Below, one piece after another: positions 1,549 through 42,859 of a stretch of DNA of 64,000 bases (positions within the stretch are counted from its first letter, which is position 1; each line of letters starts with the position of its first letter). The position numbers and the translations under genes are program-made. Source of the stretch: Monosporascus cannonballus. Its lineage: Eukaryota > Ascomycota > Sordariomycetes > Xylariales. The notes beneath the pieces were generated by a model that saw nothing but the letters and a program-made list of their open reading frames with translations, did no database searches and was not told the origin of the DNA. The stretch covers positions 62,001 to 126,000 of the forward strand of contig QJNS01000208.1 of NCBI GenBank assembly GCA_004154925.1, written 5' to 3'.

Positions 1549-1760
1549 CGATTTTCTTTTTTTTTTTAAAAAAAATTTTGCCCTTAAGATTGTTTTTCTT
1601 TAATAAATACTGCTTATTTCTCAAAATATCGCGTTACGTTATTAAAAATCGTTGTCAGATTTCATCCTTTATTATTTGTCGGCAAAAACTGCTTTTTATT
1701 TTAATAGGTTTAATTTAAACGTTATGCCATATTCCTTATGCTTTTTTAAGAGTTAAAAAT

Positions 1761-2155
1761 TGTTATGACTTAACGGTCTTGGCTTTTTCCCGGACGGTCA
1801 GAACTATAAGAGGAACGGGTCCCCCCCTAGCCAAGACGTCACGTAACTAGCTCAAAGGTCTCAAAGCGCCAAACGCCTTAAACCCCTTAAACTAGCAGGA
1901 GGGCTCAAAAAGCTTAAAGGTCTTAAGAGTTTAAGCCGCTTAAGCACCTTAAGCTAAAATAAGAATATATACGTTCGGTATTTCCATAATTTAAATAACT
2001 TTAGCTTATAATATAATATCGTTACTTAAAACGCCTTTAATATTACAAAACGTAATACGTTATTATATTTATTATTTAAATTCGTATAATATTTTTATTA
2101 ATATAAATCTGTCGACTTAAGATTTAATAATTAATTAAATTATATAGCCGTTATA
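1761..2155 (+). repeat. R2 5' LTR (type A)
   Basis: It starts TGTTATGAC and ends GCCGTTATA. U3 holds degenerate short repeats around CTTAAG; an ATATAC-type TATA lies about 215 bp in, followed by the R-U5 block shared by all elements here. Confidence 0.92.
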
Positions 2156-2379
2156 CGTTATAAATTTTTATTTAATAATACCGTTAAATTTTAAATAATA
2201 TTTAATATTGTTAAAATATTAATTAATATTTAGAAAACCTTTATTTAATAATTTTAAGTTCGAATTCGGAAATTAGAAAAAAATTTAATAATTTAGGGTT
2301 ACATTTACCTAACTTTTTTTCGTTCGTATAAAGCCGAAAAAACCAGAACTTTACGATAGAAAAAGTAATTTTTAAATTT

Positions 2380-5300
2380 TTTTAATTTAAGTACGAATTT
2401 ATTTTCGCTTTTTAAATTTTAACGATTTAATAAATATAATTTTAATAATAAAAATATACTTAATAAAAATATGGTTAATTAATTTAAGCCTATTATAAAA
2501 ATTTCTTGGAAATAAGAAAAATAAATAAGAAAAATTTTATTAATAAAATTTTTTCGATTTATATTAATTTTAAAAATAAAATATATAATAATTTCGGCAA
2601 TCCGGATAAAAAATAATTAACGGTTTAATAATTTTTATAATTCCGATAAAAAAGATTTACGTTTAAATACGCCGTAACCTTTAAAAGTTTTACGGTTAAA
2701 ATAAAATAAAAAAATAACAAAACCGATATTTTTATCAATATATTTTATAAAGGATTAAATAATAATATAAAGAATAAAATTATTCAAATTAAATAATTAA
2801 TTACCTTAAATCGATATATCGTAAAAATAATTAAAATTAATAATCGATAATTTGAAAAGCGATAAGAAAAAAAATAATATACCCCGTATTCGGAATATAA
2901 ATTTAATTAAGGGAAAAAAAAAGATATACCCCTTACTTTTTACGGAATAACGTTAAGACTTATGGAATTTGGCATTACCCATAAACAAAATTAGAGCCAA
3001 ATTAAATGTTTTAATTACGGCAAAATAAAATATAAGGCTTATAAATATAAAAAACCTAAAACATTATAATAAAATAATTAAATCTTTATACCGGAAAAAT
3101 AATCCAAAAATAATTAAGGAAACGATAATAAAGCTATTAATATAATTTAAGCTAAATAAGTATTAGGCCTTAAGTAAAAAATCCAACTAAGCCCATTCCG
3201 ATAAGAAATTCGACGAAAAATACAAAAAGCTAAAAAGCTAACTCGATAAATATTACGAATATAATAAAAGGCATTATAAGGATAATTATACGAATACCGA
3301 GATTAAATAAAAAGATTTTATCCCGGAATATTTAATCGATACGGTAAAATATATATTATATATTGTTAATAATAAAAATATCCTAATTACGAAAAATAAA
3401 AATAATATATTTATATACGAATTATTTGCATATATTATAAGGGATTTAATTTTTCAAATCGAACCGGGCATAATAAGAACGACGAATAATAATATCGATA
3501 ATTTCGAACCATAACCCCAAAAAATATCTAACAGTTAGCCGAAATAAAAAAATGGCCCAAAAAAAAAATAATATCCGCAAGAAAAAATTTTTTATTATTA
3601 TGGAAAGTATAATTATTAAATGGAAAAAAAATAATTTTGTATACGGTAAAAAAACATTATTAAAAAGTTATTACGGATTTCCATTTTTAATTAGCATTTA
3701 TTATAAATCTTTACGAAAAAAAGTTATTAAGGAAAAAATATATCAATTTATAAAAAATCTTTAAAATAATAATTATAATAACATATAATAAAATATAATT
3801 ACAAATATAAACATATAATTTATTTAATAAAAAGAAATTATAAAAAATTTAAAAATAATTAATATAATTCGAAGGAATAATACGTCGATAATAACGACAA
3901 ATATAATAACTTAACGCGTTAAACGAAAAAATATAAATAAGGTTTAATTAATTTAAACAAAAATTAAAATAAAAAAGTTATATATAAAAAAACTATAAAA
4001 TAACGAAACCCAGAAAAATTAAAAAGAATTTTTAAAAAAAACTTTAAATACGATAATAAAAAACGTTAATAACCTTATTATTTTAAATATATAAATCGGA
4101 ACGTATTAATATACCGTAATAGTAAACTGCGGAACTTTGGGCGGAAATTATATTATACCGGATATAATTAATAAGTTTAGATTATTATAAAAATATAAAT
4201 TAAAACCTTATATAATAACAAATGCCGAAAATTAGGAATTCGCTTACGATAACGGAAAAGTTATACGCAAAATTAATTATTTCGAGATTTTTATTTAAAG
4301 ATAATACCAAACGATTAATTTCGATATCGTTTTATTCGGAAATTACGATATAATTTTAGGGTTACTATAAATACGTTAGTACGGAATTTTAATTAATGGC
4401 GAAATTAGCCAGATAAAATTCGTTTTATTCCTTATTAACAAATAAAAAACGAAAAAATTAAAAATTTAATATTCGATCGATAATAACGAAAAATATAAAT
4501 ATAAGGATATAATAAATACTTTATTATCCAAATAAATAAAACATAAAAAAATGAATATTAAAAAAATATAACGTATTATTATTATTATTAAAGCGAAATT
4601 AAAATAATTAAATAACGATTTAAAATAATAAAAATAATAATTTAAAAAATTAGAAAATTTAATTAATATATTATTATAATATTACAAATACAAATAGCTT
4701 TTTAAAAAAAATTTGATACGAAATTATTAAAATATAATAAATAAGATTATAAAATAATCCTTAAGGAAAGATTTTCGACAAAGTTTTACCTTATTTATAA
4801 CCTTAATAAAAACGAATTACGTATTTTTAAAAAATACCTGGAAAATCGGCTATAAAAAAGATAAATTCAACCTTCGAAATTATTAGCAGGATACCTTATA
4901 TTTTTCGTATTTAAAAGAAATAAGAAATTACGATTTATACTTAATTACCGATAACTAAATAACGTTATTATTAAAAATTAAATATTATTACCCTTAATTA
5001 CGGAAATAAAAAACCGATTTTACGGAATTAAATAATTTATAATATTCGATTTTAAAAATAAATATAATTTTATTAGGATTAAGAAAAAATACGAATAAAA
5101 AATAACCTTTAAAACATAATACAGATTATTTAAGTATTTAATTACATTAATAAAATTTATAAACGTATTAGTAACTTTTTCACGAATAATTAATTACGTA
5201 TTACGAAAATACCTTAATATTTTTGTCGTTTATTATTTCGACAATATTGTTATTTTTTCAGAAAAAGAAAAAATATACGCAAAATACGTTTATAAAATTC

Positions 5301-7470
5301 TTTAAGCTTTATAAAACGTAAAATTATTTATTAATACAAAAAAAATTAATTTTATATATAAAAAATAAAATATCTAGGATATATTATTACTTTAAAATAT
5401 ATTAAAATAAATTTCAAGAAAATCGTTATAATTACAGAATAATAAACGCCAAATACGGTTAAAAAAATATAAACATTTCTTAAATTCGCTAATTACTATA
5501 AAAATTTTATTCGAAATTTCAGTAAAATAATTATACCCCTAATAAATTTTACAAAAAAAAAATTTAAATAAACGCTAAATACGGAAAAAACATTTTAAGA
5601 TATTAAAAATATAATTATTAACGAATTAATACTAATTATATACGATTTAAACCGCCTTATTAAATTCGAAACCGATATTTCGGATTATGCGTTAAACGTA
5701 ATAATCGGATAACGAAATAATTAAGGCAAAATATATCTTATTGTATTTTTTTCGTACAAATTAAAAAAAGCCAAATTTAATTACAATATTCCAAATAAAA
5801 AATTTATGGCCATTATTATGGTATTTTAGGAATTTAGGTATTTCCTAAAGAGAAACTTATACCAGGTTAAGGTTTATACGGATTATCAAAATCTTACCCG
5901 ATTTATTACGACCAGGAAACTTACAAAACGATAATTTCGCTACGCGGAAAAATTGGCGAACTTCGACTTCGTTATTATCTATAAGAAAAAATTAAAAAAC
6001 GGCAAAGTAAATATTTTAAGTAAATAATTAAACCTTAAAAAGAAATTGGTTAAAATTAGTTATATAATTTTTAATACTATTATAAAAAGATATTTACGTT
6101 TACGATAAATTACGACGATTCGGGCAATATTTTTCGATATGCATTAAAAAAAATCTAATAATATAACGATAATTTTCTAAAAAACTTAAAAACGAATAAA
6201 ATATAAATTCTAAAAAAATACCAAAAAGATTTAATACGAAAAATATACGAACATTAATTATATAAATACCCAGGGATCCATAAAACCTAAAAAAAACTTT
6301 AACCCATATATTCCTTTTCCAGAATAAAATTAATAATATAGAAAATTATACGGCAATACGATATTTACGCCTGAATAAAAGTTCGACGACATAAACCATA
6401 CGGAAAGTTATAACTATTATTAATTATAAAGCGGCTATAATATTTAATTATATTTAACTTTATTATTAAGCTTTTTATATTAAAAAATCCAATTACGGGA
6501 ATATATTACGATAATATTTTCGTAATCGTCGATCGATTTACGAAATTCTCTTATTTTTTTACCATATTATAAGAACATAAATGCCGAATAACTAATATAT
6601 ATTTTCTTTAAACATATTTTCAGTATATACGGATTATTAATAAAAATTATATCAAATAAAGGATCGATATTTATATCTAAATTTTGGCAAAACCTAATAA
6701 CATAAATCGGCCTAAATTACAAATTATTTAACGCGTTTAAACCATAAATAAACGGATAAATAAAACGAATAAATTAAATCTTAAAAATTTATTTACGATA
6801 TTATATTAATTATAAATAAAATAACTAGGTTAAAAAATTACCGATTACTTAATTAACTTATAATACTAATTATTACGAAAATATTAAAATAACATTTACG
6901 AATATAAATTTTAATTTTATTCCAAAAATTTATAAAAAGGTACGTAACGATAATCCAATTAATATAAAAATAATTTTTACGTCGGAATAATTACGATAAT
7001 TATATTAAAAAATAAAAATAAAACTAAAATTCGTACGAAATTAAATAAGCAAATATTATAATTAAAAAAAATTAAAAAAAATTAATTTTCGAAAAGAGAA
7101 AAATAGTTTACCTAATTATTAAAAATATTTAAATAAAACGATTTAGCAAAAAACTCGATTTTAAATATATTGGTTTATATAAAATCGCCAAAAAATCGTA
7201 AAAAATAATTATTAATTAAAACTTTTATTAAAAGTTAAATTTTATCTAATTTTTTATATTTTTTTATTCGAATTAATAACAAATACGATTAAGATATATA
7301 CGGTAGAAAACGATATGGAAATAAAAAACAAATAGGTATACGAAATAAAAAAAATTCCTAACATACGAAAATAAAACAGATTTACTTAATACTTAATTAA
7401 ATGGAAAAAATACCTAAATTTCGAAAATACCTAAGAATTTATTAAAAATCTTATTAATGCTTAACGCTTA
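2380..7470 (+). pseudogene. R2 gag-pol (capsid, protease, RT, RNase H, integrase, chromodomain), RIP-inactivated
   Basis: Frames reconstruct a Ty3/gypsy polyprotein broken by many TAA/TAG codons. The nucleocapsid knuckle is at 3007-3048: Cys, then Tyr, Tyr and Tyr at the C, H and C positions of C-x2-C-x4-H-x4-C, each one RIP step away. The protease shows an NCG triplet where D-[ST/C]-G belongs, near 4115, followed by the flap-side stretch GGNYIIPD. RT has Y-F-D-N (5234-5245) in place of YLDD. RNase H and integrase follow. The chromodomain (about 7300-7450) keeps YLIKWKK with Trp at 7402-7404. No part can be translated at length. Confidence 0.85.
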
Positions 7471-7544
7471 TTAAAAATCTAATATTAATAATATTAAGTA
7501 CGTTTAAATTAATAATTAACTAATTAATAATCGGAATATCGGAT

Positions 7545-7990
7545 TAATTAATTATAACTTATATTAATAAGGCGGCCGTAATAACGGCCTCCAATTATTA
7601 TTATTTTTTTTCCAAATGTTCGAATTTTTCTATCGCCTCCGTACTTTAAATATTTCGACGAAATAACTGCCTTTGTTTCTGTAGGCGATTTAATTTGTTA
7701 ATAATAGCCCGTAACGTTTTACGAATCTGTTTTTTTTTATATTTTAAATGATTTTTTTCGTTAAGCAATTTTTGGTACTTAATTTTTAAAGGCCTAAAAA
7801 CGTTATATAGGTTACCATAATAAATATATTATGCATATTTTAAAGATTTTCGAACAACTTTATATTTTGTATTTTTTTTTTCGCAACGAAAATAAGAAAA
7901 TATTTTAAAACCAAAACGTTTAATACGTTTTAAAAAGATTAAAACGTAAATACGTTTACGAAAATAAGATTTTTTAATATAACCCGATAT
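7545..7990 (-). pseudogene. R2 antisense accessory frame (Zn2Cys6-like spacing, RIPped)
   Basis: On the strand opposite to gag-pol, between chromodomain and 3' LTR, lies a frame whose start codon reads ATA (7990; ATG in R5 and R6). Codon 36 is Cys (7883-7885). Codons 33, 43, 52, 55 and 62 read Tyr, the residue that TGT/TGC becomes after one G-to-A change. The spacing is x2, x6, x8, x2, x6. A basic stretch with leucine/lysine periodicity follows, including IRKTLRA and RLQKQRQLFRR. It is broken by TAA codons and small frame slips. Function is unknown; the spacing is that of fungal Zn2Cys6 regulators. Confidence 0.6.
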
Positions 7991-8077
7991 AATAAATATA
8001 AAAAAAAGTTACTTATTAAAATTAACAAATAAATAATTTAATTTTTAAGGATAAAAATCCTGGAAGGGGAGAAATCA

Positions 8078-8471
8078 TATTATGATTTAACGGTTTTGGC
8101 TTTTTTCCGGACGGTTAGGATTATAAAAGGAACGGGTTTTACCTTAGCCAAAACATTACGTAACTGGCTTAAAGGTCTTAAAGCGCCAAGCGCCTTAAAC
8201 CCTTTAAAATAGCAGAAAGGCTTAAAAAGCTTAAAGGTCTTAAGGGTTTAAACCGTTTAAATACCTTAAGCCAAAATAAAAATATATATGTTCATTATTT
8301 CCATAATTTAAATAACTTTAGCTTGTAATATAATATTATTACTTAAAACGCCTTTGGTATTACGAGACGTAATACGTTATTGTATTTATTGCTCAGATTT
8401 CCACGATATTCCTGCTAACATAAACCCGTCGACTTAAGGTTAATAGTTGGTTAAACCGCATAGCCGTTACA
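8078..8471 (+). repeat. R2 3' LTR (type A)
   Basis: It is preceded by the polypurine tract GGAAGGGGAGAAATC (8062-8076) and ends CCGTTACA. It is less mutated than the 5' LTR and contains an unmutated AGCTTGTAA at 8320-8328, about 37 bp after the TATA-like ATATATATG. Confidence 0.92.
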
Positions 8472-9111
8472 AAAATGCGAAATAATAAAAAACGTTTTTA
8501 AATATAATGCTTACGTTAAATGTGAATTTTTTATAATAAAACCGGTATTTCGGTTTCGTTTTTAAAAACATTCGCATTAAAAATTAACGTTTGGAACGAA
8601 AAAAGGTTTTTGTAAAAAAACCTTTTTTAGAGCTATAAAAACGTTATTAACAAAAGATAAACGAGATCATCGCGCGGTTAATTTATTTCCGAAAGCAGAA
8701 ACCTTTTTTCGTTCGAAAGGAATAAAAATGGTATAAAAGGAGTTATAATCGTTAAAGAAGTTAAAGGAACAAAAGCGCTAAGAACAGGCCAACGTCGAGG
8801 CTTTTATAGCCGTATTGGTTCCTTTCGTTGGTCTCGTGAACTGGTCCGGTATCGGCGATACCGACTGATCCGTCAAAAACGTTAATTGGGACGTAATTAT
8901 TTCTGGCGGCTTTATTGTTGCTGGTGAAAATTCTTTAACAAACGTTGAGCGCTAATAAGGTTCTTAGCGGATTCCCAGGTGTTTTCGAAGTCCGGGTGCT
9001 TTTTCTACTTGATTAGGTACTGAGTAAGTCCGTTTTCTTTTCTTATGTCGAATATTTTTTTTACTTTCTATGTTTGTTTATTTTTTACCTCCATATCGTT
9101 TTATGCCGTAT

Positions 9112-9749: not shown

Positions 9750-12700
9750 ACCCTTTAGTCAAAAATGTTAACTAATACCTAAATACCTTTTGCCGCCGCG
9801 CAGTTCTAAGCCAGAATTAAGAAGCTTAAAAAGCGAGTTCAGCAACTCGCAGAGCAAATAACAGCCACCTTAATTCAAACTATTGCACGAAAGTATAAAA
9901 TTAAAAAAACCTTAATTCTACGATAGAAAAAAAACATTGAAAAATTTCTTTACTTAGATACGAACATATTTCCGTTTTCAAGATTTGTACGAACTCGCGA
10001 ATAAAATTTTCGCTGTAACAATTTTCCTTACGAGAAATACTTTGGACTAGTTCGAACCAGTTATAAGAGACTATCTGGAAAACTCCGAAACCGATCCGAA
10101 AAAAATTTACCAGAATTTCTTTTTCTAATCATATAAACTTTTAAAAAATTAAAGACCAATTTTGAAAATCTCGATAAAAAGCAAATAACAACCTAATAAC
10201 TCTTGTATTTATAATAAAAAAAAACCTGTTTCGAAATACGCTATCAATTTCAGAAACCTTATGGCGAAAGTAAAATGGACCAATAATAAAGGCGATAATT
10301 TGATCGATATATTTTATAAAATATTCAAAGATAACGTTAAGGATAAAATTATTAAGTTTTTAAAACCTAAATCCTTAAACCAATATATTACCGAAGTTAT
10401 TAAAATTAACAATAAGTTATACGAATAACTTATAAAAAAGGATAATACGTTTTAAGATATAGAGGCCAATCGACTAATTAAAGAAAAAAACGCGATATAC
10501 TATGTATATCGCATAATATCGCATCAGAACTCATAGAATTAGAGGTTACTTATAAGAAAAGCGGGAAACAAATTAAATACTTTAATTACAATAAAATAAG
10601 GCATAAGGCAGTATAATACAAAGCATTTAAAAAACCTCGCCAGAACAACTAGAAACCTATACCGGAAAAACAATTCAAAGAAAACTCGAAAAACGAAGAC
10701 AAATCTATTCATATAATTCGGACTAAGTACATACCGGGCCTATTATAGCGAGAATTTTAAGAAAGAATATAAGGAGCCAAAAAGCTAACGTAATAAATAT
10801 CGCAGTTATAATAAAAGAAATTATAAAAGTGATTACGAAAATACTAGATTTAGATAGAAAAAGTCTGTCCTAAAATCTTTAATCGATATAGCAAAAATTG
10901 CGTTATATATTACCGATAACGAGAATATTCTAATTATTAAAAATGGAAATAATATATTTACAAAAGGATTGTTCGCATATAGTATAAGAAATTCGATTTT
11001 CCAAATCGAACTGGAAATAATAAAAACGATAAATAATAATATCTGTATTTATAATTTATAGCTCTAGGAAATAATATTTACTAATTAATTAAAGCAGAAC
11101 ATTAATCATAAAAATAATGTCTATAAGAAAACCTTTTTTATTACGATAAGTAATACAATTATTAAACGAAAAAAACTTAATCTAGTATATAATGGAAAAA
11201 TAGTATTAAAAAGCCATTATAAATCTTTATTTTTAATTGGTATTTATTACGGACCTTCACGAAAAAAAGTTATTAAGAAAGAAATACGTTAATTCATAAG
11301 CGAACGCTAAAACGACAGTTAATACGATATATAATAAAATACGGTTAAAACTATAAAAAACAAATTATTTATTTAATAAGGAAATCACTTAGAGCAAAAT
11401 TAAAAATAATTAATATAGTTCGAAAAGACCATTCGCCAGCAATAACGACAAATATAAAAGCTTAAGGTATTATATATAGAAATATAAATAAGGTTCGATA
11501 AATCCGATTATTTTTTTTTAAAAAAAGAATTAGTTATAAAAAAGCCGCAAAATAACGAAACACCGAAAAATTAAAAGTAATTTCCAAAAACGATTTCAAA
11601 CGTATTAATAAAAGCCGTTAATAGCATTATTACTTTGGACATACGAATCGGAACGTATTAGTATATCGTAATAATGGATTGCAGAGCTCTGAACAGAAAT
11701 TACATTATACCGGATATGGTTAACGGGCTTAAACTACTATAGAGATATAAATTAGAACTCTATATAGCAACGAATGCTGAAAGTCAGGAGTTCGCTTACA
11801 ATAACGAAAAGATTATACACAAAATTAATTACTTCGAAATTTTTGTCCAAGAACAATATCAGACAGTTAGTTTCGATATCATTTTACTTCGAAAATACGA
11901 TATAATTTTAGGATTACCATAAATATGCTAATATAGAATATTAATTAACAAAAGAGCTGGCTAAGTAAGGTTCGCTTTATACGCCGTTAATAGAGAAAAA
12001 AATTAAAATCTTAATATTCGATCAAAAATAATAACGAATATAGGTATAGGGATATTACAGAAATCTTATTACTTAAAGAAACAAAACACATACACACAAA
12101 AGAAAATACGGGCATTAAAGAAAAATACAACGCTTTATTATTATCAAAGTAAACCTAAAGTAATTAAATAACGATCTTAAATAACAGTTCTAAAAGTTAA
12201 AAGATCCAATTAATATATTGCTATAATATTACCAATATAAGCAGTTTTTTAAAAAAAGACATCGATACGAAGTTACTAGAATATAACGAATAACAGTATA
12301 AGGTAATCCTTAAAAAAATCTTTGACCAAATTCTATTTTATTTAACACTTTAACGGAAACAAATTACGCACTATTAAAAGAATATATAGAAAATGAATTA
12401 TAAAAAGAATAAATTCGACTTTCGAAGTTATCAGCAAGGTATCTTATATTTTTCGTATTTTAAAAAAATAGAAAATTGCATCTTATAGCTAATTATCGAT
12501 AATTAAATAATATTATTATCAAAAATCGCATATTATTACTTTTGATAATAGAAATAAAACACGAGTTTTACGAAATAAAATAATTTATAATATTTTTTTT
12601 GAATATGGATATAACTTAATCAGGATTAAAAAATACAAATAAAATAGAAGCTTTAGAATGAAATACGGATTATTTAAATATATAATTATGTTAATAATAT

Positions 12701-14619
12701 TTACGAACGTACTAGCATTCTTGTAACGGACAATTAATTATGTATTACGAAACTGCCTTAACGTTTTCGTCGTTTATTATTTTAACAACATTTGTATCTT
12801 TTTAGCAACGAAAAAAGAATATATAAGATACGTTTATAAAGGTTTTTAAGCTATAGAAAACGCAAAGATGCTGATCAATATAAAAAAATAGTTTTATATA
12901 TAGAAAGTAAGATATTTAAAATATATTATTACCCTAAAATATATTAAGTTGAATTCACAAATAACCGTTGTATTTATAAAATAGCAAACGCTAACAACCG
13001 GTAAAAAGATACAGGCATTTCTTAAATTCGCTCATTATTACAGAAATTTTATTCGAAACTTTCACAGAATTATTATACTTTTAATTAACTTTAAGAAAAA
13101 AGAAAAGAAATTTAAATAAACGTTCGAAATAAAGAAAATGTTTTAATAGATTAAAGATATAATTATTAACGAATTAATAATAATTATATACGATTTAATA
13201 CGTTTAGTTATATTAAAAGCCGATGTTTCGAATTACGCATTAAATATAATAATCGGAAACCGAAATAATTAAGACAAAATATATCTCATGCTATTTTTTT
13301 CGTATAAACTAAAAGAAGCCAAACTTAATTACGGTTTTCCAAATAAGGAATTTATAGCCATTATTATGCCTTTTCGAAAGTTCAGGTATTTCTTAAAGAA
13401 AAACTTATATCAAATCAAAGTTTATACAGATTATTAAAAGCTTACCGGTTTAATTATAACTAAGAAACTTATAGAATAATTATTAAAATACGTAAAAAAA
13501 TTAACGAACTTCGATTTCTTTATTATTTATAGAAAGGGCTTAGAAAACGGCAAAATCGAGGCCTGAAGCAGGCGACCAGACCTCGAAAGAAACGGTCAAA
13601 ATTAGCTATATAATTTTTAATACTACCGAAAAAAATATTTACCCTTACGATAAATTGCGATAATTCGAGCAGTACCTTCTGATATATATTAGAAAATCTA
13701 GCAGTCTTACGATAACGTTTTATAAAATCAAAAAATAAACAAAATATAGGTTTTTTCAGAAATACTAAAAGATTTGAAATGAAAAATATATGAATAGTAA
13801 TTATATAAATATCTAAAACTCTACAAAATCTTAAAACGATATAATATACACATGTTTTTGCTAAAATAAAAATAATAACAAAAAAATTAAATAATAATAC
13901 GATAGTTACGTTAAAACAAAACCTTAATAACATTAGCTATATGGAAAATTATAACTATTATTAATTATAAAATTACAATAATATTTTATTATAATCGATT
14001 TTATCATAAACCTTTTTAGGTTAAGAAATTCCGTTTTACGAAACTATTATAACAGTATTTTCGTAATCGCTCACGGATAAACGAAATTTTCTTATGTTTA
14101 ACCATATTATAAAAATACAAATACCGAATAAATAATATATATATTTTTCAGAAATATATTTAATACATACAGATTATTAATAAAACTTATTTCGGATAAA
14201 GAATTAATATTTGCATTTAGATTTTGGCCAGGTCTTACAATATATATCGGCTTAAATTATAATTTATTCAATATTTTTAAATTTTAAATAAATTAATAAA
14301 TAAATCAAACGAATTACCCCTTAAAAACGTATTTACTATATTATATTAATTATAAATAAAGTAGCTAATTTAAGATATTATTAATTATGTAATTAATTTA
14401 TAATATTAGTTATTGCAAAAATATTAAAATAACTTTAAAATATATTAATTTTGGTTTTACCTTAAAAGTTTACAAAACAATACGCGATAATAATCTAGGT
14501 AATGTTAAAATAATCCCTATATTAAAATAACTTGAATAATTACATTAAAAAATAGAAACGGAATTAGAATTTGTACTAAATTAAAGAAATAAATATTATA
14601 ATTAAAAAAAAGTAAAAAG

Positions 14620-15041
14620 TGTAACGGCTAGGGGGTTTAACCAACGATTAAACCTTAGTCGTACGGGTTTATGTTAGCAGGAATATCGTAGGAAATTGAG
14701 CAATAAATATAATAACGTATTACGTCTCGTAATATCAAGGGTGCCTTAGGTAACGAATTATTATTGCAAGCTGAAGTTATCTGAATTATGGAAATAATAA
14801 GCATATATATCCTGATCCGGCTTACTGGCTTACCAGCAATAAGTTGGTGATTCGGCTTATTGGCTCACCACTAGTAAGTTAATGATCCGGCTCACTGGCT
14901 TACTACCAATAAGTTGATAATCCGGCTCACTGGCTCACCACCAGTGAATTGGTGATCCATCACGTGACCTGCTCTACCGCGCGTTTATAGTTGGGTCGTG
15001 GCAAACCGTTTCTGGAAACCGTAGCTCGTTAGGTCATAATA
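14620..15041 (-). repeat. R4 3' LTR with four 35-bp units
   Basis: On the plus strand it starts TGTAACGGC and ends GTCATAATA. The adjoining GAGGAGATCG (minus strand) is the polypurine tract. Its U3 differs from types A and B and holds a tandem array (14814-14953). Confidence 0.92.
14814..14953. repeat. Tandem array, 4 x 35 bp, in R4 U3
   Basis: Four units start GATCCGGCTT, GATTCGGCTT, GATCCGGCTC and AATCCGGCTC and each end in a TTGGT-like pentamer. The other LTR of the same element has a single unit at 21311-21345. A CACGTG palindrome follows the array in both LTRs. The array is not RIP-converted. Confidence 0.92.
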
Positions 15042-15109
15042 CGATCTCCTCCCTTTATAAATCTTGCCCTTAAGATTTTCTCTTGGTAAGCTTTTTGTAT
15101 CCATTTAAC

Positions 15110-15600
15110 ATGTTTTCCGGTATATCGAAACGTCGTTTTTGCAAATCCGAATAACAACTTGCCCTGGTTAATTTAATTAAATATAAAAATTTTAACGTAA
15201 ATTTTTATTTTTTCTGTTTTACCCGACAGCTTAATTGCCAAATAATAGACGGGGTTTTTCGTTGTAAAAAATGTATTCGTCGAGGTCGTTCATACGACGG
15301 AACAGGAATACCTGTTTTTATGATTAATCGTTATATCGCAAAGTTGAAAAAATTAAAAAAGAAAGAACTAACGGCCGAAAAATCTTTATTCGAAGCTTTT
15401 ACGCGCTTTTCCCGTATATATCGTTAACGCCAGTATTATTAGTCTTAAAGTACGAAACGTATTAATTATGCTTTTTAATTTTTGGACGATTTTAATAAGT
15501 TTACATAATTAAAATCAAAAATTGTAGTCGATATATAGGCTTTAAATAAGGTAAACGTTATTAATTCAAATGCGGTAAATTAAAGATTTTTCTTTTTAAA
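15110..15600 (+). pseudogene. R4 antisense accessory gene, Zn2Cys6-like
   Basis: It lies opposite to gag-pol, just inside the 3' LTR. ATG at 15110 opens a frame with a first in-frame TAA at 15152. Codons 33 Tyr (15206), 36 Cys (15215), 43 Cys (15236), 52 Cys (15263), 55 Cys (15272) and 62 Tyr (15293) have spacing x2, x6, x8, x2, x6; both Tyr codons are one G-to-A step from Cys. Asp-Gly follows directly, then a basic, leucine-rich stretch around codons 73-100 (RYIAKLKKLKKKELTAEKSL). TAA at 15425 and later stops end the recognisable part. The spacing is that of Gal4-type Zn2Cys6 DNA-binding domains. I believe similar small hypothetical proteins are common in Pezizomycotina, but that is from memory. 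DNA binding is inference. Confidence 0.7.
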
Positions 15601-15639
15601 TCTTATAAATTGAAATATTATTATTTCGGATAATTCCGT

Positions 15640-18600
15640 TATTGCTAGTGAAAATTCTTTAATAAGCGCTAGGCGCTAATAAGAGTTTTGGCGAATTTCT
15701 AGGTGTTTTCGGAATCCGGGTACTTTTTTTACTTAATTAAGTACTAAGTAAATCCGTTTTGTTTTCGTATGTTAAAAACCTTTTCCACTTTATATATTTA
15801 TTCGTTTCTTACCTTTATATCGTTTTATGCCGTATATATTTTAATTGTATCTGCTGTTAATTCGAGTAAACAAATATAGAAAATTAGATAGAATTTGATT
15901 TTTGGTAAAAGTTCCAACTGGTAAACATTTTTTTAAGATTTTTTTGATAATTTTATATAGACCGATACATTTGAAATCGAATTTTGTATCGGATTATTTT
16001 ATTTAAATAGTTTTCGTAAGAAAAGATTATTTTCCCTTTTTTGAAAATTAATTTTTTTAGCTTTTTTTGGTTATAATATTTGCTTATTTAATTTCGTACG
16101 AATTCCAGTTTTATTTTTATTTCTTAATATAATTATTTTAGTTATTTTGATATAAAGATTGCTTTAATATTGATTAGACCGTTAACTCGTATTTTCTTTA
16201 TAAACTTCCAAAATAAAACTAAAATTTACGTTCGTTAATATTGTTTTAATATTTTTATTATAATTGGTATTAGAAGTCAATTATACGATTAATACTTTTT
16301 TAAATTAATTATTTTATTTATAATTAATATAATATCCTAAATAGGCGTTTAAAATTCGATTCGTTCGTTTTATTTATTAATTTATTTATAGTTTAAATAC
16401 TTTAAATAATTTATAATTTAAGCCGATTTGTGTTATAAGGCCTTATTAAAACTTAAATACAAATACCGTTCCTTTATTTACAATAAGCTTTATTAATAAT
16501 TCGAATATATTAAAAATATGTTTTAAGAAAATATATGCTATTTGTTCGGCATTTATGTTTTTGTAATATGGTAAAAAATAAGAAACTTTAGTAAATTGAT
16601 TGACTAATACGAAAATACTATTATAATATATTTCTGTAATTAAACGTTTTAATATAAGATATTTAATAATAAAATGAAACAGAATTGAATATTATAATCG
16701 TTTTATAATTAATAATAACTGTAAATTTCCGTATAACTTATGTTATTAAGCTTTCGTTTTAACGTAAATATCGTATTATTATATAATTTATTGTATTCTT
16801 GATTTATTTTGAATAAAGAATATATACGTTAAAATCGTTTTAAAGTTTTATAAATCCTTGGATATCCGTATAATTAATGTTCGTATATATTTTGTACTAA
16901 ATCCTTTTGGTATTTTATTAAAATTTATATTTTGTTCGTTTTTTGGTTTTATAGAAAATCGTCATTTTATTACTAGATTTCTTAATATATATCAAAGCTT
17001 TTGCTCGAATTATTACAATTTGTCACAAACGTAAATATCTTTCTATAGTAATATCGAAAATTATATAACTAAATTTAACCAAATTTCTTTCAAAATTTAA
17101 TTATTTACTTAAAATATTTACTTTATTATTTTCTAAATTTCTTCTATAGATTTTAACGAAATCGAAGTTCGTTAATATTTTAGCGTAACGAAATTATTAT
17201 TTTATAAGTTTTTTGATTATTATAAATTGGGTAAAATTTAATAATCTATATAAATTTTAACCTAATGCAAGTTCCTCTTTAAAAAGTACTGGAACTTTCG
17301 GAATACTATAATAGTAATTATAAATTCCTTATTTAAAATACCGTAATTGAATCCGGCTTTTTTAATTTATATAAAAAGAATATATTAAAATGTAATTTAC
17401 TTTAATTCTTTCGTTATCCGCTTATTACGTTTAACGCGTAATCCAAAGTATCGGCTTTTAGTTCAACAGGGCGGTTTAAATTATATATAATTAGCATTAA
17501 TTCGTTAATAATTATATCCTTAATATATTAAAATATATTTTCCGTTTCGGATATGTATTTAAATTTTTCGTAAAATTCGTTAAAGGTATAATTATTTTGC
17601 TAAAATTTTGAATAAACTTCTTTAAATAATTGGCAAATCCAAAACAATATTTGTACTTCCTTAAGTATCGTTAACGTTTGCTATTTAATAATTATAGCGA
17701 TTTTCTTAAGATTTATCTTAATATGTTCTGGGATAATAATATATTCCAGATATTTTATTTCTTATAGGTAAAACTAATTTTTTTCTATATAAATAAGTAA
17801 TTTTACGTTCTGTAAAACTTGCAAAACTTTATGAATATATCTAATATATATTCCGGTCGTTTTTTAAAAAATAAGAATATAATCGAAATAATAAATACCG
17901 AAAATATCGATATATTTTTATAATATATACCTAATTATCCGTTAAAATATTACAATTATATTCGTAAATCTTATTAATATAATTAAAAATTTAAATAATC
18001 CGTATTTCGGTTTAAAATTTATTTCTTCTTCTTATTCGTTTTAATTTTAATAAGATTATATTTATTTTTAAGATCGAATGTTATAAATTATTAGGTTTCG
18101 TAAAATCGGGTTTTTATTTTTATAATGAAAAATAATAATATTCGATTTTAAAAAATATAATCGTTTAATTGTTAATAATTAACTATAAGTCGCAATTTTT
18201 CATTTTTCTTAAATACGAAGAATATCGAGTACTTTGTTAATAATTTCGATAGTCGTATCCATTTTTCTTATAACCGATCTTCTAGGTATTTTTGAAAATA
18301 CCCAATTCGTTTTTATTAAAATTGTAAATAAGGTGAGATTTTGTTGAAAATCCTTTTTTACAACTTATTTCGTAATTTTATTCGTTATATTGTAATAATT
18401 TCGTTTCAAATTCTTTTTTCAAGCATTATTTATATCTATAATATTATAATAACATATTAATTAATTTTTTAAATTTTTAAGATTACTGTTATTTAAAGTC
18501 GTTATTTAATTACTTTAATTTCGTTCTAATAATAATAATAATACGTCGTATTTTTCTTTAATACCCGTTTTCTTATATTTTATCCTTTTAGGTAATAAAG

Positions 18601-20600
18601 TTTTTATCGTAGTTTTATGCCTGTATTCGTTATTATTTCTAATCGAATACGGAGATTTTAATTTTTTCTTTTTTTAATTATTGATCGGGTATAAGAAAAA
18701 CCTTATTTAATTAATTTTTTCATCAATTAAAATTGCGTACTGGCGTATCTATGATAATCCTAAAATTATATCGTAATTCTTAAATAAAACGATATTAAAA
18801 TAAACTATCTGGTATTATCTTTAAACAAAAATCTCGAAATAATTAATTTCGCGTATAATTTTTTCGTTATCGTAAGCGAATTTTTAACCTTCGGTATTCG
18901 TCGTTATATAAGATTTTAACTTATATCTTTATAATAATCTGAACTTATTAAACATATCTAGTATAATATAATTTTCGTCCAAAGCTTCGTAATTTACTAT
19001 TACGATATACTAATACGTTCCGATTTATATATCTAGAATAATAATGTTATTAATAGCTTTTATCGTTACGTTTAAAGCCCTTCTTAGAAATTCCTTTTTA
19101 TTTTTCGAAATCTATTATTTTGTATATTTCTTACAAATTTCCGTTTTTTTTAGCTTTTATTCCAATTTATCGAACCTTATGTATATTTCTATATTTAACG
19201 CGTTAAACTGTTATATTTATCGTTATTGCAGGCGTACTATTCATTCGCATAATATTAATTATTTTTAATTTTATTATAATTTATTTCTTTATTAAATCAT
19301 TTATTTTCTTAGGTTTTCGACTCCATTCTATTATATGTTATCTTAATTAGAGTTTTAAAACTTATTTATACATTAACGTATTTTTCTAATAACTTTTTTA
19401 TAAACGTTTATCATAAATATTAATTAAAAGTAAAAATCGATAATAACGTTTTAGCAGTATCTTTTTGTATTATATATTAAATTAACTCCTTTTTCGTTTA
19501 ACAATTATATAAGTAATAATAATAATATAAACTCTTTTTACGAGCATTATTTCTTTTCGACCAACTTTTTGTTTTGGCCAATTATTAAATATTTTCTAAG
19601 GCTATAAATCGAAAATATCGATATTATTATTTATTGTTTTTATTATTTCCGGTACGGTTTGGAAAATCGATTCCTTTGTAATATGTGCAAATAATCTGGC
19701 CATAAATATATTATTTCCATTCTTTATAATTGGGATATTCTCGTTGTCGACAATATATAGCGTATATTTTGCCATATCGATTAAGGATTTTCGAACAGAC
19801 TTTTTCTATTTAATTCTAGTGTTGGCGTAATTATCCTTATAACGTTTCTTATCATATTTGCAATATTTATTAAACTAATTCTCTAGTTTTTCGAATTTCT
19901 TATTAAAGTTTTTGTTATAAGGGGCCTAATACGTATTTAAGCCGAATTATATTAATAAGTTTACCTTTATTTTTCTAATTTTTTCTGGGTTATCCTTTAA
20001 GTATTAATTTTCAATTATTTTAACGGAACTTCTTAAGTATTTTGTATTATGCTACGTTGTGCCCTATTTTATTATAATTAAAGCATTTCGTTTAATTTCA
20101 AATTTTTTTATAAGTAATTCCTAGTTCAATAAATCTTAGTTCCGTGCTATTAAGAGTATTATCGCGTCGAAAAACGCTAGTATTAACTATATGTCGAGAT
20201 TTATTATTATTTTCTCTTGTAATATCTTTGATATACCAGGCGTATTATCGATTATTAATCTTAATTACCAAAACGATATACTCCGATAAATAATTAGGCC
20301 GACTAAATTTAAAAAGCTTTTTTTCATATTTTTTAAGCCGTCGAAAAACTTAATTATTAATATTTTTATTTTTTAATTTACTTTAAAATCTAATAAAATT
20401 AACGTATTACCGTAATTAAATATTAATTCTTTTTATCGTTATTATTAGATTTCTATTTCGGCTTTTGTTTTTTCGTTTATTGTTCCGCAAGCTTCGTTAA
20501 TATTTATTTAAATTATTCGTAATTATTATAAATTCGAATTGTGTTCGGATTTTCTTTATTAACCGGCAAAATAATATAGTTTCTTATAATGGATTTGAAC
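15640..20600 (-). pseudogene. R4 gag-pol, RIP-inactivated
   Basis: Minus-strand frames give gag, with a CCHC knuckle relic at 20044-20085 (first Cys and His kept, Tyr at the second and last Cys positions), protease, then RT with Y-F-D-Y at 17879-17890. Integrase and chromodomain extend to about 15640. Stops are too dense for any translated product. Confidence 0.82.
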
Positions 20601-21116
20601 ATAATAACGGTATTTCCGATTAAAGGTCCGATTATAAACTTAATTCGTATAATCAACGTAATTAATTAAATAAAAAAATACTCGAAATAAGTTCGGTATT
20701 AAATCGAAAATAATTATAACTTAATCGAAACTTCGTCAAAAAGCTCTAGCTTAAAGGCTTAAGAATTTCTCCTGGTTCCTTAATAAAATTTAGCTAAATA
20801 ACTTGGCTTGCTTAAAAGGGTTTTCCGATTTCGGAAACTTTTCCCTTTTTTTTAAAATTTCTTATAAGCGGCTTAAAAAGACGTCATAAGGTTATTATTG
20901 TTTTTTAAGCTAATTACTGCGTTCGTTTATAGCATCTAGACGTCGAAGAATTTCTTTATAAAAAAAACGGAGTTTTTCTTTTTTTTTCGGATTTTATTTT
21001 AATATCCGGGTTATTAAGGATTTAGTAATTAGGCTGTTCGGGCTGTTTACTAATAAACATAATATCGGCGATATTGGTCAAAATTTAACGGTATTATTAA
21101 ATAAAGGTTTATAACA

Positions 21117-21433
21117 TATAACGGCTAAAAATTTTAATTAATTATTAAATCTTAACTATACGAATTTATATAAACAAAAGTATTTTAGAAAATTAAAAAA
21201 TAAATATAATAACGTATTATATTTTACAACATCAAAAATATTGTAAATAAGGAATTATTATTATAAATTAAAAATATTTAAATTATAAAAATAATAGACG
21301 TATATATCCTGATCCGGCTTACTGGCTTACTACCAGTGAGTTAGTGATCGATCACGTGACCTGCCCTACCGCGCGCTTGTGGTTGAGTTGTAGCAGACCG
21401 TTTCTGGAGATCTTAGCTTGTTGAGTTATAACA
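21117..21433 (-). repeat. R4 5' LTR with one 35-bp unit
   Basis: It starts TATAACGGC and ends TATAACA. The inner R-U5 half (21117-21300) is heavily AT-converted, while the outer U3 half (21305-21433) is unmutated, with a sharp change near 21303. Confidence 0.92.
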
Positions 21434-21869
21434 AAAAGATAAATTTTCGAAAAAATAGAATAATTTACTTAGTTATAAAAAGTTAAATAAAATAATTTAA
21501 TAAAAAACTTAATTTTAAATATATCGGATTATATAAAGTTTTTAAAAGAATTTTTAAAAATAATTATTTATCTAAATTCTTACTAAAAGTAAAATTCTAT
21601 TTAATTTTATATATTGGTTTATTCGAATTAGCATCGGATATAATTAAGGTGTATAAGGCACAAAACGACATAAAAATAAAACATAATACGATATACGCAA
21701 TGGAAAAAATATTTGATATAAAAAACAGACTTACCCAATACTTGATTAAATGGAAAAAGCATCCGGATTTTAAAAATACCTGGGAACCCACCAAAATCTT
21801 ATTAGCGCCTAACGTTTATTGAAAAACTTTTACTAGCAACGACGGACGCGTTCCAGTTAACTGTCAACT

Positions 21870-22431
21870 AATTAATAATATCAACCTCGAACCAATCGGC
21901 CGGAAATACGGCCTGTGCTAACGTAACAACTGCGACGGCAGCCTCTAGCTATTCCTATTCCCGACGCTCCTCATCTTCTAATTCATTTAACGACTAAAGC
22001 CCACGTTGCACGATGGTAACACCTTTCGAACGGGCCAGCGCCTTTTGCTTACGCAAACGGATAAAACAAAAAAAAAGTTTCGTTTATTTTTTTTAATAAC
22101 GGCATTAAACCTTAAGATAAAGCCGTTAGAGTTTTAATAGCCGTTTTTTTAGCAAAGGTCTTTTCGCGCTTTAAACGTTAATTTTCGCGATAAATATTTT
22201 GCAAAAAAAAAGCGATACACTAGTATTATTACAAAATCAATCCCGATTAATATATTTTTTATATCTTAAAATGGTTTTTATTATTTTATGTTTAATGTTT
22301 TTCCAAAACCAATAAAAATAAAGCCTAATTTCGTATCCGAATTTCTCGAAGGCCTTTATAAAGTTAGCATAACGAATAGTAAAAAAACCAGAGATATAAC
22401 AAATCTTGGAAATGCGAAACGACATGCTCAA
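21870..22431 (-). pseudogene. R3 antisense accessory frame, divergent type
   Basis: A 64-codon open stretch (22237-22431, starting MSMSFRISKICYISG) opens opposite to gag-pol between chromodomain and 3' LTR. It continues through stops to a tail near 21900 with KQKALARSKGVTIVQRGL and an acidic, leucine-rich end (LNELEDEE, LEAAVAVVTLAQAV). The C-terminal LEAAV and TLAQ motifs recall the end of the R6/R8 antisense frames. I cannot place the six-cysteine pattern in this copy; aromatic residues at candidate sites include Phe codons that RIP would not produce from Cys. It is probably a distant relative in the same position. Confidence 0.5.
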
Positions 22432-22901: not shown

Positions 22902-24913
22902 CGTATGCACTTTGATTATATTTGCTGCTTACTCGAATAAGAAAATATGAAAAATTGAATAATGCTTGATTTTTAGTAAAACCTCTAATTGGTAATTATT
23001 TTCTAGAATTTCTTTTAGCGATTTTGCAAAGACCGATATATTTGAAATCGAGTTTCATGCTGGGCTTTTTTCGTCTCAATGTTTTTTGTGACAAGATAAA
23101 CCGTTTTCCCCTTTTCGAAGGTCATGTTTTTAACCGTTTTTCGTTATAATATTTATTTATTTGATTTTGTACAAATTTTAAGTTTAGTTTTATTTTTTAA
23201 TACAGCTATTTTGTTATTCTGATATAATAATAGTATTAACGTTAATTAAATCATTGTTACATACGTTTTTGTAAACTTTTAAAATAAAACCAAAATTTAC
23301 GTTTACTGAAATTATTTTAATACTTTCGTAATAATTAGTATTATAGGTTAGCTGCGCGATTGGTAATTTTTCAACCCAGTTATTCTCTTCGTAATTAATG
23401 TAATATCGTAAGTACGTTTTCAAAGTCTAGTTTGTTCGTTTTATTTGTCCGTTCGTCTAGGGTCTAAATACGTTGAATAATTTATACTTTAGGTCGATTT
23501 AGATTATAAGATTTTGCCAAAATTTAAATACATATATTAATTCTTTGTTTAAAATAAATTTTATTAATAATCGCTATACGTCAAAACTATGTCTAAAAAA
23601 TATATGGCATTTGTTCGGCGATTGTATTCTTATAATATAGTAAGAAATAAGAAGATTTCGTAAATCGATCGACGATTAGAAAAATATTATCTTAATACAT
23701 TCTTTTAACGTCATTTTTTAGTATAAAAAATCTGGTATTAAAATCGAATATAATTAAATATTATGGTTGATTTGCGATTAATAATACCTGTAATTTTCCG
23801 TATAGTTTATATCGTCGCATTTTCACCTTAGTACAAATATCGTATTGTTATATAATTTTCTATATCATTAACTTTATTTTAGAAAATTAATAAGTTCGTT
23901 ATAATCTTTTTCAAGTTTTATAAATCTTTAAATATTCGTATAGCTAATATTTATATATTTTGTATACCAAATCTATCTGGTATTCCTTTACAATTTGTAT
24001 TTGTTTATGTTTTAGTTTTCTAGGAAATTATCCTTATATTGCTAAAAACTTTGATATATATTAAAGGGTATTACCCGAATTGTCGCAATCTGTTGTGGGC
24101 GTAAATATTCTTCTTTAATGGTATCAAAAATTATATGGCTAACTTTTACCAAATTTCTTTTGGAGATCTGGTCGTTTGTTTAAAGCGTCGGTTTTACTAT
24201 TTTAAGCTCTTTTTATAGATAATAACGAAATCGAAATTCGCTAATTCTTTTCCGTATCTTAATTATCGTTTTATGAATTTCCTGGTCGTAGTAAAACACG
24301 TAAAATCTTGATAATATGTATAAACTTTAACCTAGTACAAACTTCCTTTGAAAACATATTTAAACATCCGAAAAGCTATAATAATAACAATAAATTCCTT
24401 TTTAGAAATACCATAATTAAATTCGACTCCTTTTAATTTGTATAAAGAGAATATAATATGGTATAATTTGCCTTAATAATTTCGTTATCCGATTATTGCG
24501 TTTAATGCGTAATTCGAAATATTGGTTTTTAATTTAATATAGCAAATTAAATTGTACATAATTAGTACTGGTTTGTTAATAATTACATTTTTAATTTTTT
24601 AAATGCCTTTTGAGCTTTAGGTATTTATTTGAATTTTCTTTCTTTTTTTATAAGGTTAGTTAAGGGTATAGTTATTTTGCTAAAGTTTCGGATAAACTTC
24701 TTGTAATAATTGACGAATCCAAGAAATACCTGCATTTTGTGAGAATACAGCTCCTATGGGGCTGCGGCTGGTGTCCGACCAGCCATAGACCCACGCGCTA
24801 GTACAAATAACCATCTAACAGCTAGTAAGAAACGCTAAATAGAAGTAACCTAATACATTCACTTCTTGGAATACGCTTTGCGACTGGTCGGGGGTCACCT
24901 TACCGTAGCACTC

Positions 24914-34130: not shown

Positions 34131-37088
34131 TTAATATACCGCAATAGAAAATTACGGAGCTTTAGGCGAGAGTTACATTATATTAAATCTGGCGAATAAA
34201 TTTAAATTACCATAAAATATAAGTTAAAACCGTATATAACGACAAATACCGAAGGTTAAGAATTTGCTTACAGTAATAAAAAGAATTATCCGCGAAATTA
34301 ATTATTTCGGGATTTTTATTTAAAAACGGTACCAAATAATTATTGTCGATATCGTTTTATTTGAGAATTATGATATAATTTTAGGATTATTATAAATACG
34401 TTAATCCGGAATTTTCATTAATAAATAATTTAATTAAATAAAATTACCCTTATATCCTATTAACGGACAAAAAAAGAAAGAATTAAGATCTTGACATTCG
34501 ATCGATAATGGCGACGAGTATAAGCATAAGAATTCGACAAAAACCTCATTATCTAAAAAGATAAAATACAAAAGAAAAAACGGATATCAAAAAAATACGA
34601 CATATCGTTATTATTATCAAAACAAACTTAAGACAACTAAATAACGATTTAAAATAATAATAGCTTGAAGGATTAAAGGATTTAATTAATATATTACTAT
34701 AATGCTACAGATATAAGCAGTTTTTCAAAAAGGAAATTAATATGACAATATTAGAATATAAAGAATAAAATTATAAAATAATCTTTAAAAAAGAGTTTTC
34801 GACGAAGTTTTACCCTATTTATAACCTTAACGGAAACAAATTACGTACTTTCAGAAAATACCTGGAAAATCGGTTACAACAAAGATGGATTCGTCTTTCG
34901 AAATTACCAACAAAATACCTTTTATATTTCGTACCAAAAAAAACGAGAAAGTGCGACTTATAATTAATTATCGATAATTAAAAGATATCATTATTAAAAA
35001 TCGAATATTATTACCTTTAATTACGCAAATAAAAAACCGATTTTACAGAACCACATAATTTACCGTATTTAATTTTAAAAACAGACATAACCTTGTTAAA
35101 ATTAAAATAAAATACGAATAAAAAACAATTTTTAAAACGAAATACGAATTATTTAAATATTTGGTTATATTAATAGGATTTACGTACGTAGTAGCAATTT
35201 TCTAACAGATAATAAATTATTTATTACGAAAATATCTCGATATTTCCTCGTTTATTATCTCGACGACATTTTCATTCTTTTCGAAACAAAAAGAACATAC
35301 GTAAAATACGTTTATAAAGTTTTTAAATTTTACAAAACGTAAGGTTATTTACTAATGCGAAAAAACCTTTATTATATAAATGAAAAATAAAATATAAAAA
35401 CCATATTATTATCCCAAGATATATTAAGATCAATTTTAAGAAATTTATCATAATTATAAAATAATAAATGCTAACAATAATTGAAGGAATATGGGCATTT
35501 TTTGCATTCGCCAATTACTATAGAAAATTTATTCGAAACTTTAGCAAAATAATTATACCTTTAACGAATCTTACGAAAAAGAAAAGTTTAAATAAATGCT
35601 AAATACGGAAAAAGTATTTTAAGATATCAAAAATACAATTATCAACAAGCCAGTATTAATTACGTACAATTTAAACCGGCTCGCGAAACTATAAATTAAT
35701 ATTTCGGATTATATATTAAAGATAATAATCGGATAATAAAATAATTAAGGCAAATTATACCTTATTATATTCTTTTCGTACAAATAGAAAAAAACCGAAT
35801 TTAATTCTGGTATTCCAAAAGTTTAGGCATTTTCTAAAAGAAAACTTATACCGGGTCAAAGTTTATACGGATTATCAAAATCTTACCCGATTTATTACGA
35901 TCAAAAGGCTTATAAAACGATAATTAAAATACGCGGAAAAATTGGCGAATTTCGATTTCGTTATTATCTACAAAGAAAGCTTCAAAAACGGCAAAGCAAA
36001 TACCTTAAGCAAACGACCAAACTTCGAAAAAAAATTAGTTAAAGTTAGTTGTATAATTTTCGATATTATTATAAAAAAGTATTTACGCTTACGACAAATT
36101 ATGTCAATTCGAGCAGTACCTTTCGATATGTATTAGAAAATCTAGCAGTATAACGACGGTTTTCTAGAAAACTAAAAAAGGAACAAAATACAAATTCCAA
36201 AAAAATATCGGAAAAGTCTAATACGAAAAATATATAAATATCAGTTATACGGATATCTAGGGATTTATAAAACTTTAAAACAGCTTTAACGTATATATTC
36301 ATTTTTTAGAATAAAGTTAACGGTATAAAATATCATATAGTGATAGAATATTTACGCTAAAATAAAAACTTAACAATATAAACCATATGGAGAATTACAG
36401 TTATTACCAATCGTAAAACGATTATGATATTTAATTGTATTCAACTTTATTACGAAACTTCTTATATTAAAAATTCCAGTTATAGAAATATATTACGATA
36501 GCATTTTCGTAATCGTCGACCGATTTACGAAATTCTCCTATTTTATATTATATTGTAAGAATACAGACGCCGAACAAATCGCATATATTCTTTTAGATGT
36601 ATTTTTAACATATACGAATCATTAATAAAAATCGTTTTAAATAAAAATTCGATATTTATATCTAAGTTTTAACAAAGTCTAATAATATAAATCGGTTTAA
36701 ATTATAAATTATTTAACGTTTTTAAACTTTAGATAAATAAATACATAAAACGAATAAATTCAATTTTAAATATTTACTTACGATATTATATTAATTACGA
36801 ATAAAATAATTAAATTAAGAAACTCTTAATCGTATAATTAGTTTATAATACTAATTATTATAAAAATATTAAAATAATATTAATAAATGCATTTTTTGGT
36901 TTTATATCAAATATTTATAATAAAATATACGAGAATGATTTAATTAATATTAAAATAATCTTTACATTAAAACAATTACAATAATAACATTAAAAAATAA
37001 AAACGGAACTACAATTCGTACGAAATTAAATAAATAAATATTATAATTAAAAAAGGGTAAAAAAATTGATTTTAGAAAAAGGGGAAAT

Positions 37089-37483
37089 TGTTATAACCTA
37101 ACGGTCTTGGCTTCTTTTCAGACGGTCGGAACCACGAAAAGGTCAGTTCCGACCCAAGTCAAGACGTCACGTAACTGGCTCAAAGGTCTGAAGGCGCCAA
37201 ACACCTTAAGCCCTTTAAGCTAGCAGGAAAACTTAAAAGGCTTAACGGGCTTAAGGGTTTAAGCCGCTTAAGTACCTTAAGCCAAAATAAGGATATATAT
37301 GCGTATTATTCCATAATTTAAATAATTTTAGCTTATAATATAATATCGTTATTTAAGGCACCTTTAATAATACGAGACATAATACGTTATTATATTTATT
37401 ACTTAAATTCCCATAATACTTTTATTAATATAAACCTGTCGACTTAACGTTTAATAATTTATTAAATTATTTATTTCGTTATA
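37089..37483 (+). repeat. R7 5' LTR (type A)
   Basis: It starts TGTTATAACC and ends CGTTATA. U3 is mildly, and U5 strongly, AT-converted. Confidence 0.92.
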
Positions 37484-37699
37484 CGTTCTAAGTTTTTATT
37501 TAATAATACCGTTAAACTTTAAGCAATATTTAATACTGTTAAAATATCGACTAACGTTTAGGGAACCTTTATTTAGCAATTTTAGGTTCGAATTCGGGAA
37601 CTGGAAAAAGAAATTCGATAAATTAAGGTTACGTTACTTGTTTAACCTTTTTTTGCCCGCATAAAACCTAAAAAGCCGAAGCTTTATAATAAAAAAAAT

Positions 37700-42815: not shown

Positions 42816-42859
42816 AATCATAACGGGCGCGTTCCAGTTAAAAATCGATTAATTAATAA

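Follow-up and report, generated by a model that had tools for sequence, protein, structure and literature searches.

A Zn2Cys6-like gene family antisense to pol in Ty3/Gypsy retrotransposons of Monosporascus cannonballus and its possible role as a regulator of its own element

Antisense genes in long terminal repeat (LTR) retrotransposons are described, in the parts of the literature covered here, from plants and from one fungal element, without an assigned function. Passages on plant elements report conserved antisense open reading frames (aORFs) between pol and the 3′ LTR to which no function is assigned (TRP28 of Retand, gene23 of Grande, and that of RIRE2); DNA binding is predicted for TRP28, and Retand is stated to be a non-chromovirus (PMC7264820, PMC11963269). 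The same passages treat HBZ of the human T-cell leukemia virus type 1 (HTLV-1), a nuclear protein encoded in antisense, and place the HTLV antisense promoter in the 3′ LTR (PMC11963269, PMC7264820). In fungi, Boty of Botrytis cinerea carries the antisense gene brtn together with a gag-pol that contains a CHROMO domain (PMC4227169, PMC8365987, PMC5987419). The description of brtn by Zhao et al. (2011, Virology 417:248) is known here via the citing papers, whose passages present it as an additional antisense gene in Boty-like retrotransposons and do not mention a zinc cluster. Here, we analyzed a stretch of 64,000 nucleotides from contig QJNS01000208.1 of the ascomycete Monosporascus cannonballus (the window), in which a retrotransposon, R4, carries a decayed frame antisense to gag-pol with the cysteine spacing of a fungal zinc cluster. 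This gene shares with the plant aORFs the position between pol and the 3′ LTR and differs from them in domain and host; it differs from HBZ in not coming from an animal retrovirus. The original prediction, made from this DNA alone, knew of no antisense zinc-cluster gene in a fungal LTR element. We likewise found no report of one among the papers listed in literature searches (10–20 of up to 187 per search, subscription papers lying mostly outside), and the term "antisense" is absent from the main text of a survey of fungal LTR elements (PMC3248453); a fungal chromovirus with an antisense gene is not new in itself, as brtn of Boty illustrates in the passages that cite it.

R4 spans positions 14620–21433 of the window, with LTRs at 14620–15041 and 21117–21433 and a 5-bp AAAAG duplication on each side. 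It is inserted in an oppositely oriented element, the flanks of which (9893–14618 and 21433 onward) continue one relative. Because the reverse transcriptase (RT) and the integrase of R4 are on the minus strand, the plus-strand frame that begins with the ATG at 15110 is antisense and lies between pol and the 3′ LTR. The ATG is 68 bases from this LTR, and the 3′ end of the gene is approximately 1157 bases from the integrase match, which bears out the predicted location opposite gag-pol and just inside the 3′ LTR. The locus contains the following features:

14615–14619, no strand: left target-site duplication AAAAG, read directly and matching 21434–21438; the flanks continue an uninterrupted relative
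14620–15041, no strand: 3′ LTR of R4 (gag-pol on the minus strand), pairing with 21117–21433
15042–15058, minus strand: purine-rich tract resembling a polypurine tract and adjoining the 3′ LTR, read directly
15110–15592, plus strand: decayed antisense zinc-cluster gene, stop-free only over 15155–15427
15206–15295, plus strand: six-cysteine cluster region, codons 33–62, from the frame and the alignment
15302–15427, plus strand: segment that corresponds to the beginning of the long helix in intact relatives, from the alignment of copies and the model
16749–16914, minus strand: zinc-binding (H2C2) part of the integrase, by homology to the integrase match of copy L055
17735–18213, minus strand: RT core, by homology to RVT_1 matches among copies L041–L052
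21117–21433, no strand: 5′ LTR of R4, pairing with the 3′ LTR
21434–21438, no strand: right target-site duplication AAAAG, read directly
21877–22380, minus strand: relic of this gene family within the plus-strand element interrupted by R4 (tblastn E 5e-18; flank homology)

Reading the frame from the ATG at 15110 gave Y33-x2-C36-x6-C43-x8-C52-x2-C55-x6-Y62, followed by Asp-Gly and a basic Lys/Leu-rich stretch. The predicted residues, their spacing and the basic leucine-rich stretch behind Y62 are all present; the claim that the frame is open from its ATG did not hold, codon 15 being a TAA stop (15152–15154). The stop-free part covers 15155–15427 (90 amino acids, without the ATG), and recognizable sequence reaches approximately 15592 with more stops on the way. 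The gene in this window is a relic. Although 90 codons is the longest stop-free run across the interior of R4, simulated sequence with the same dinucleotide make-up reached this length in 255 of 1000 runs over the whole interior and in 91 of 2000 runs over 15042–15640. The openness of this single copy therefore proves nothing, and we rejected its length as a sign of significance. A chance frame, or the shadow of sense coding, would be in keeping with such a run, and the case against it comes from the copies and relatives of the gene.

Searching the same genome (88.8 Mb, 618 contigs) with this region yielded 547 candidates, the best 40 of which were scored. We aligned 42 rows, made up of R4, one row for each of 39 further loci, and an additional copy from both L003 and L032; these copies were found by the antisense region itself and give no measure of gene frequency among family copies. 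The frame over the cluster was seen in all 42 rows, with L032b differing upstream and, after the cluster, L003b ending and L002 departing. Counts were made on 41 rows, leaving out L032b. Cys and Tyr together occupied positions 33, 36, 43, 52, 55, and 62 in 35/35, 38/41, 40/41, 41/41, 39/41, and 40/41 rows, respectively (6 rows have no letter at 33), and Cys alone in 5, 20, 26, 6, 12, and 2 rows. Elsewhere, at least 80% Cys plus Tyr was reached at 2 of 159 other codon positions, which hold 1 and 0 Cys. In the window, CpA and TpG are depleted and CpG is not, a bias that we take to fit repeat-induced point mutation (RIP). RIP attacks CpA/TpG and is able to convert Cys codons to Tyr codons. Over 15110–15427, the antisense frame has 1.59 stops per copy versus 4.29–8.34 in the other 5 frames and is stop-free in 5 of the 41 rows; no row is stop-free in any of the 3 sense-strand frames, which counts against a shadow of sense coding. 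The third codon position also shows an excess of transversions (permutation p 0.0012, with 0.86 and 0.99 for the other 2 registers), and transversions are not made by RIP. Part of these data weighs against a conserved antisense zinc-cluster protein. Over 15428–15592, stops in the antisense frame average 5.44 per copy, near the top of the range across the 6 frames (2.85–5.80). Moreover, most of the third-position excess lies in the tail (1.45 per column versus 0.62 and 0.96), and the N-terminus and the cluster show little of it (0.47 versus 0.44 and 0.38).

Single-sequence searches with the decayed R4 frame returned no protein at E ≤ 0.001 and no Pfam family, and two PDB matches to this frame were taken as chance. 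We then used profiles. The first, built from 18 decayed copies, gave no relevant hit in Pfam or among PDB chains and found the first 3 protein relatives. The second, built from these 3 proteins and 3 copies from this genome, yielded 29 related proteins at E ≤ 1 among 7995 scored candidates of the protein database, with Cordyceps sp. RAO-2017, Apiospora rasikravindrae, Cryphonectria parasitica, Colletotrichum melonis, and Monosporascus among the named sources. The C. melonis protein is labelled Zn(2)-C6 fungal-type domain-containing by one source. The original prediction had named two findings as decisive against it, relatives lacking an open frame and relatives lacking Cys at the six positions. 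Relatives with an open frame were recovered, and their cluster positions are Cys: the strict pattern C-x2-C-x6-C-x8-C-x2-C-x6/7-C, which lies within the spacing that defines fungal Gal4-type clusters (C-x2-C-x6-C-x5-12-C-x2-C-x6-9-C), occurs in 23 of the 29. The others are P0010, with Tyr for the first Cys; P0019, a partial Cryphonectria protein with a degraded cluster; and P0024, P0026, P0027, and P0029, which begin downstream of the cluster (P0026, P0027, and P0029 are Monosporascus proteins with E 2e-7 to 1e-5). When 24 of the 29 relatives were aligned at the ligands (leaving out P0019, P0024, P0026, P0027, and P0029), the 4 inner ligands were Cys in 24/24 and each outer ligand in 23/24, the exceptions being the Tyr of P0010 at the first and the last Cys of P0028, displaced 1 residue later. 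An acidic tail is present in 27 of the 29, the exceptions being the short fragments P0003 and P0023. We are practically certain that the antisense gene family is real; this genome holds many copies of it, and other fungi have relatives. A chance frame is refuted by the intact homologues, with the ligand pattern and the third-position signal pointing the same way, and we regard it as hardly tenable. A scan of viral contigs confirmed 0 of 45 pattern matches. P0014, P0015, P0020, P0022, and P0023 have approximately 20 extra residues directly behind the cluster, hydrophobic and partly Cys-rich, the sequence of which suggests a short antisense-strand intron left unspliced; such an intron would survive retrotransposition.

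In the layout of the family, a basic N-terminus leads into the zinc cluster, which is followed by a long helix and then an acidic tail, the order of parts in a small Gal4-type activator. Structure models had a block-mean pLDDT (predicted local distance difference test) of 92–95 at residues 31–60, a helix at 69–127, and a tail of low confidence. The nearest solved folds of the models were HAP1, PUT3, GAL4, and Pho7, with weak scores; for the P0003 model, HAP1, PUT3, or GAL4 accounted for all 6 among the matches listed. Structure prediction, proposed earlier as a check, favored a Gal4-like fold through structural matches that are specific but weak in score. Comparison with Pfam Zn_clus, the other proposed check, gave scores against PF00172 of 17.4, 16.9, 13.1, 10.2, 9.3, and 8.6 bits among the matches listed, all below the cut-off of 21 bits, with a best E of 0.0028 among 24 members. 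Since the cut-off was missed, we call the domain Zn2Cys6-like and do not file it under PF00172. NCBIfam gave unrelated matches only. Against PDB, the intact profile matched the zinc-cluster proteins LAC9, PUT3, and CBF3 subunit B only at E 1.4–5.1; its best sequence match, a coiled-coil spike construct (E 0.00065), was taken as composition. Like GAL4, PUT3, HAP1, and Pho7, the family has the six-cysteine spacing and a cluster followed by a linker and a helix. Unlike Gal4-type proteins, it is encoded by a retroelement, measures approximately 190 amino acids, scores under the Pfam cut-off, and has its more constant basic residues in the second half. Altogether, the antisense protein very likely has a Zn2Cys6-like fold.

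To place the gene relative to pol, we paired 259 distinct gene places (merged from 3 genome searches) with 150 integrase and 149 RT places, in each case best-scored matches only; most gene places consequently have no scored partner nearby. Within 2.5 kb, all 15 integrase pairs were opposite and convergent (14 gaps of 1069–1315 and one of 2299), as were 14 of 15 RT pairs (gaps 2089–2329), the remaining RT pair, C37, being on the same strand with a gap of 1439. Up to 8 kb, 16 integrase pairs were opposite and 5 on the same strand, and 17 and 6 RT pairs, respectively, as expected because neighboring elements come in at this distance. The gene occupies the position called aORF-3R, located after pol and before the 3′ LTR and encoded on the strand opposite to pol. 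Of the 8 RT-bearing elements in the window, 7 have a remnant of the gene opposite pol, and the eighth is a fragment. Besides R4, these are:

7924–7574, minus strand: remnant opposite pol
22380–21877, minus strand: remnant opposite pol, the one flanking R4
33645–33241, minus strand: remnant opposite pol
43342–42912, minus strand: remnant opposite pol
44521–44333, minus strand: remnant opposite pol
48210–48371, plus strand: remnant opposite pol

For 22380–21877 and 44521–44333, pol lies beyond an inserted element, as traced by homology of the interrupted flanks. The remnants other than R4 and 22380–21877 are weak matches (E 0.003 to 1e-6), and the window search found no remnant for the RT at 45457–45935, which belongs to the element fragment, or near the integrase at 23834–23988. 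A single element might recently have captured one host zinc-cluster gene, in line with the known capture of host genes by retroelements (passages of PMC7264820), but divergent elements have it on the same strand and at the same spacing, homologues are named from other genera, and a further query returned 1386 candidates in this genome, the best 150 of which were scored. We consider such a capture highly improbable.

Among the elements so arranged, one has a chromodomain. In the C132 element, RT, integrase, and chromodomain are all on the plus strand, which makes it a chromovirus. In L089, a plus-strand chromodomain stretch (E 3e-17) runs to 241 and the antisense frame, on the minus strand, runs to 96, which gives a tail-to-tail overlap of approximately 145 nt. 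This antisense frame is open for 220 codons, with Tyr at the first 2 ligands and no ATG at the start position of the family. By domain content, the carriers are chromovirus-type elements, with the chromodomain seen in one element and RT and integrase located in R4 itself. R4 is probably a mutation-scarred Ty3/Gypsy element from a lineage in which a genuine antisense gene separates pol from the 3′ LTR. The antisense tail of L089 over the end of pol is nearly identical to P0026, P0027, and P0029, while the remainder differs; this near-identity likely reflects coding on both strands. The overlap of both frames at their 3′ ends in L089 would also suit a role of the antisense RNA, in which convergent transcription yields double-stranded RNA and the protein is secondary, and such a role is discussed for plant antisense ORFs (passages of PMC7264820). 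Conservation at the level of codons and ligands across fungi would be needless for RNA alone, and we judge this explanation very unlikely.

We predict that the antisense product is probably an element-encoded, Gal4-like DNA-binding regulator. The gene reads toward pol, and its promoter would most likely lie in or beside the 3′ LTR. The product, approximately 185–240 amino acids long, combines a Gal4-like six-cysteine cluster with an acidic tail and a long helix that could serve dimerization. Like a miniature Gal4-type regulator, it would most likely enter the nucleus, dimerize, and bind zinc and CGG-type sites. It may then adjust transcription of the element, perhaps through CCGG-bearing units of the LTR, with the target and the direction of the effect proposed tentatively:

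14813–14958, no strand: array of ATCCGG-containing 35-bp units within U3 of the LTR, a candidate target (Tandem Repeats Finder)

The location in U3 follows from the minus-strand orientation of gag-pol. CGG triplets are the sites to which Gal4-type proteins bind, and among 39 LTR stretches examined (40 loci with an LTR-like match, one dropped), 37 contain ATCCGG at least once. The array is, on its sequence, a reasonable candidate target. The persistence of CCGG was rejected as a sign of selection because this site, without CpA/TpG, is spared by RIP. The number of 35-bp units seems to vary between copies. Binding to the LTR of the element itself is a possibility that we hold tentatively. The zinc-cluster gene may be real and serve elsewhere, in RNA or Gag complexes, on host genes, or in host silencing, and a non-canonical cluster under the Pfam cut-off in a small protein without a large regulatory domain would be in keeping with this. 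However, cluster, long helix, and acidic tail follow the order of a Gal4-type activator, and the structural neighbors of the cluster are DNA-binding Zn2Cys6 proteins. We regard a role away from the own LTR as unlikely. A more far-reaching reading, to which we assign a probability of roughly 0.35, is that in several ascomycete genera the chromoviruses carry an antisense gene for a Gal4-like transcription factor of their own, driven from the 3′ LTR, which binds the CCGG repeats of the LTR and acts as a feedback regulator.

The family gives an antisense gene of LTR elements a recognizable domain and a fixed position, together with a DNA target that can be tested. It would suggest that transcriptional control encoded by the element itself and separated by strand arose in fungal retroelements, as it did in some animal retroviruses, and it would explain a set of fungal proteins mostly named hypothetical. 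In the far-reaching reading, the factor would be a functional parallel to antisense or trans-acting regulators in complex retroviruses, made with the zinc-cluster toolkit of fungi; HBZ is a basic leucine zipper (bZIP) protein rather than a zinc-cluster protein.

LTR elements are nested in the window between 1757 and 54000, where R4 lies inside a plus-strand element and a 6.7-kb element (37085–43832) lies inside another. Neither end of the window yielded a clear gene. On the plus strand, a copy of the antisense-gene family (1600–1758 and 8470–8720) is apparently split by an element at approximately 1757–8476, and the break falls within the cluster region.
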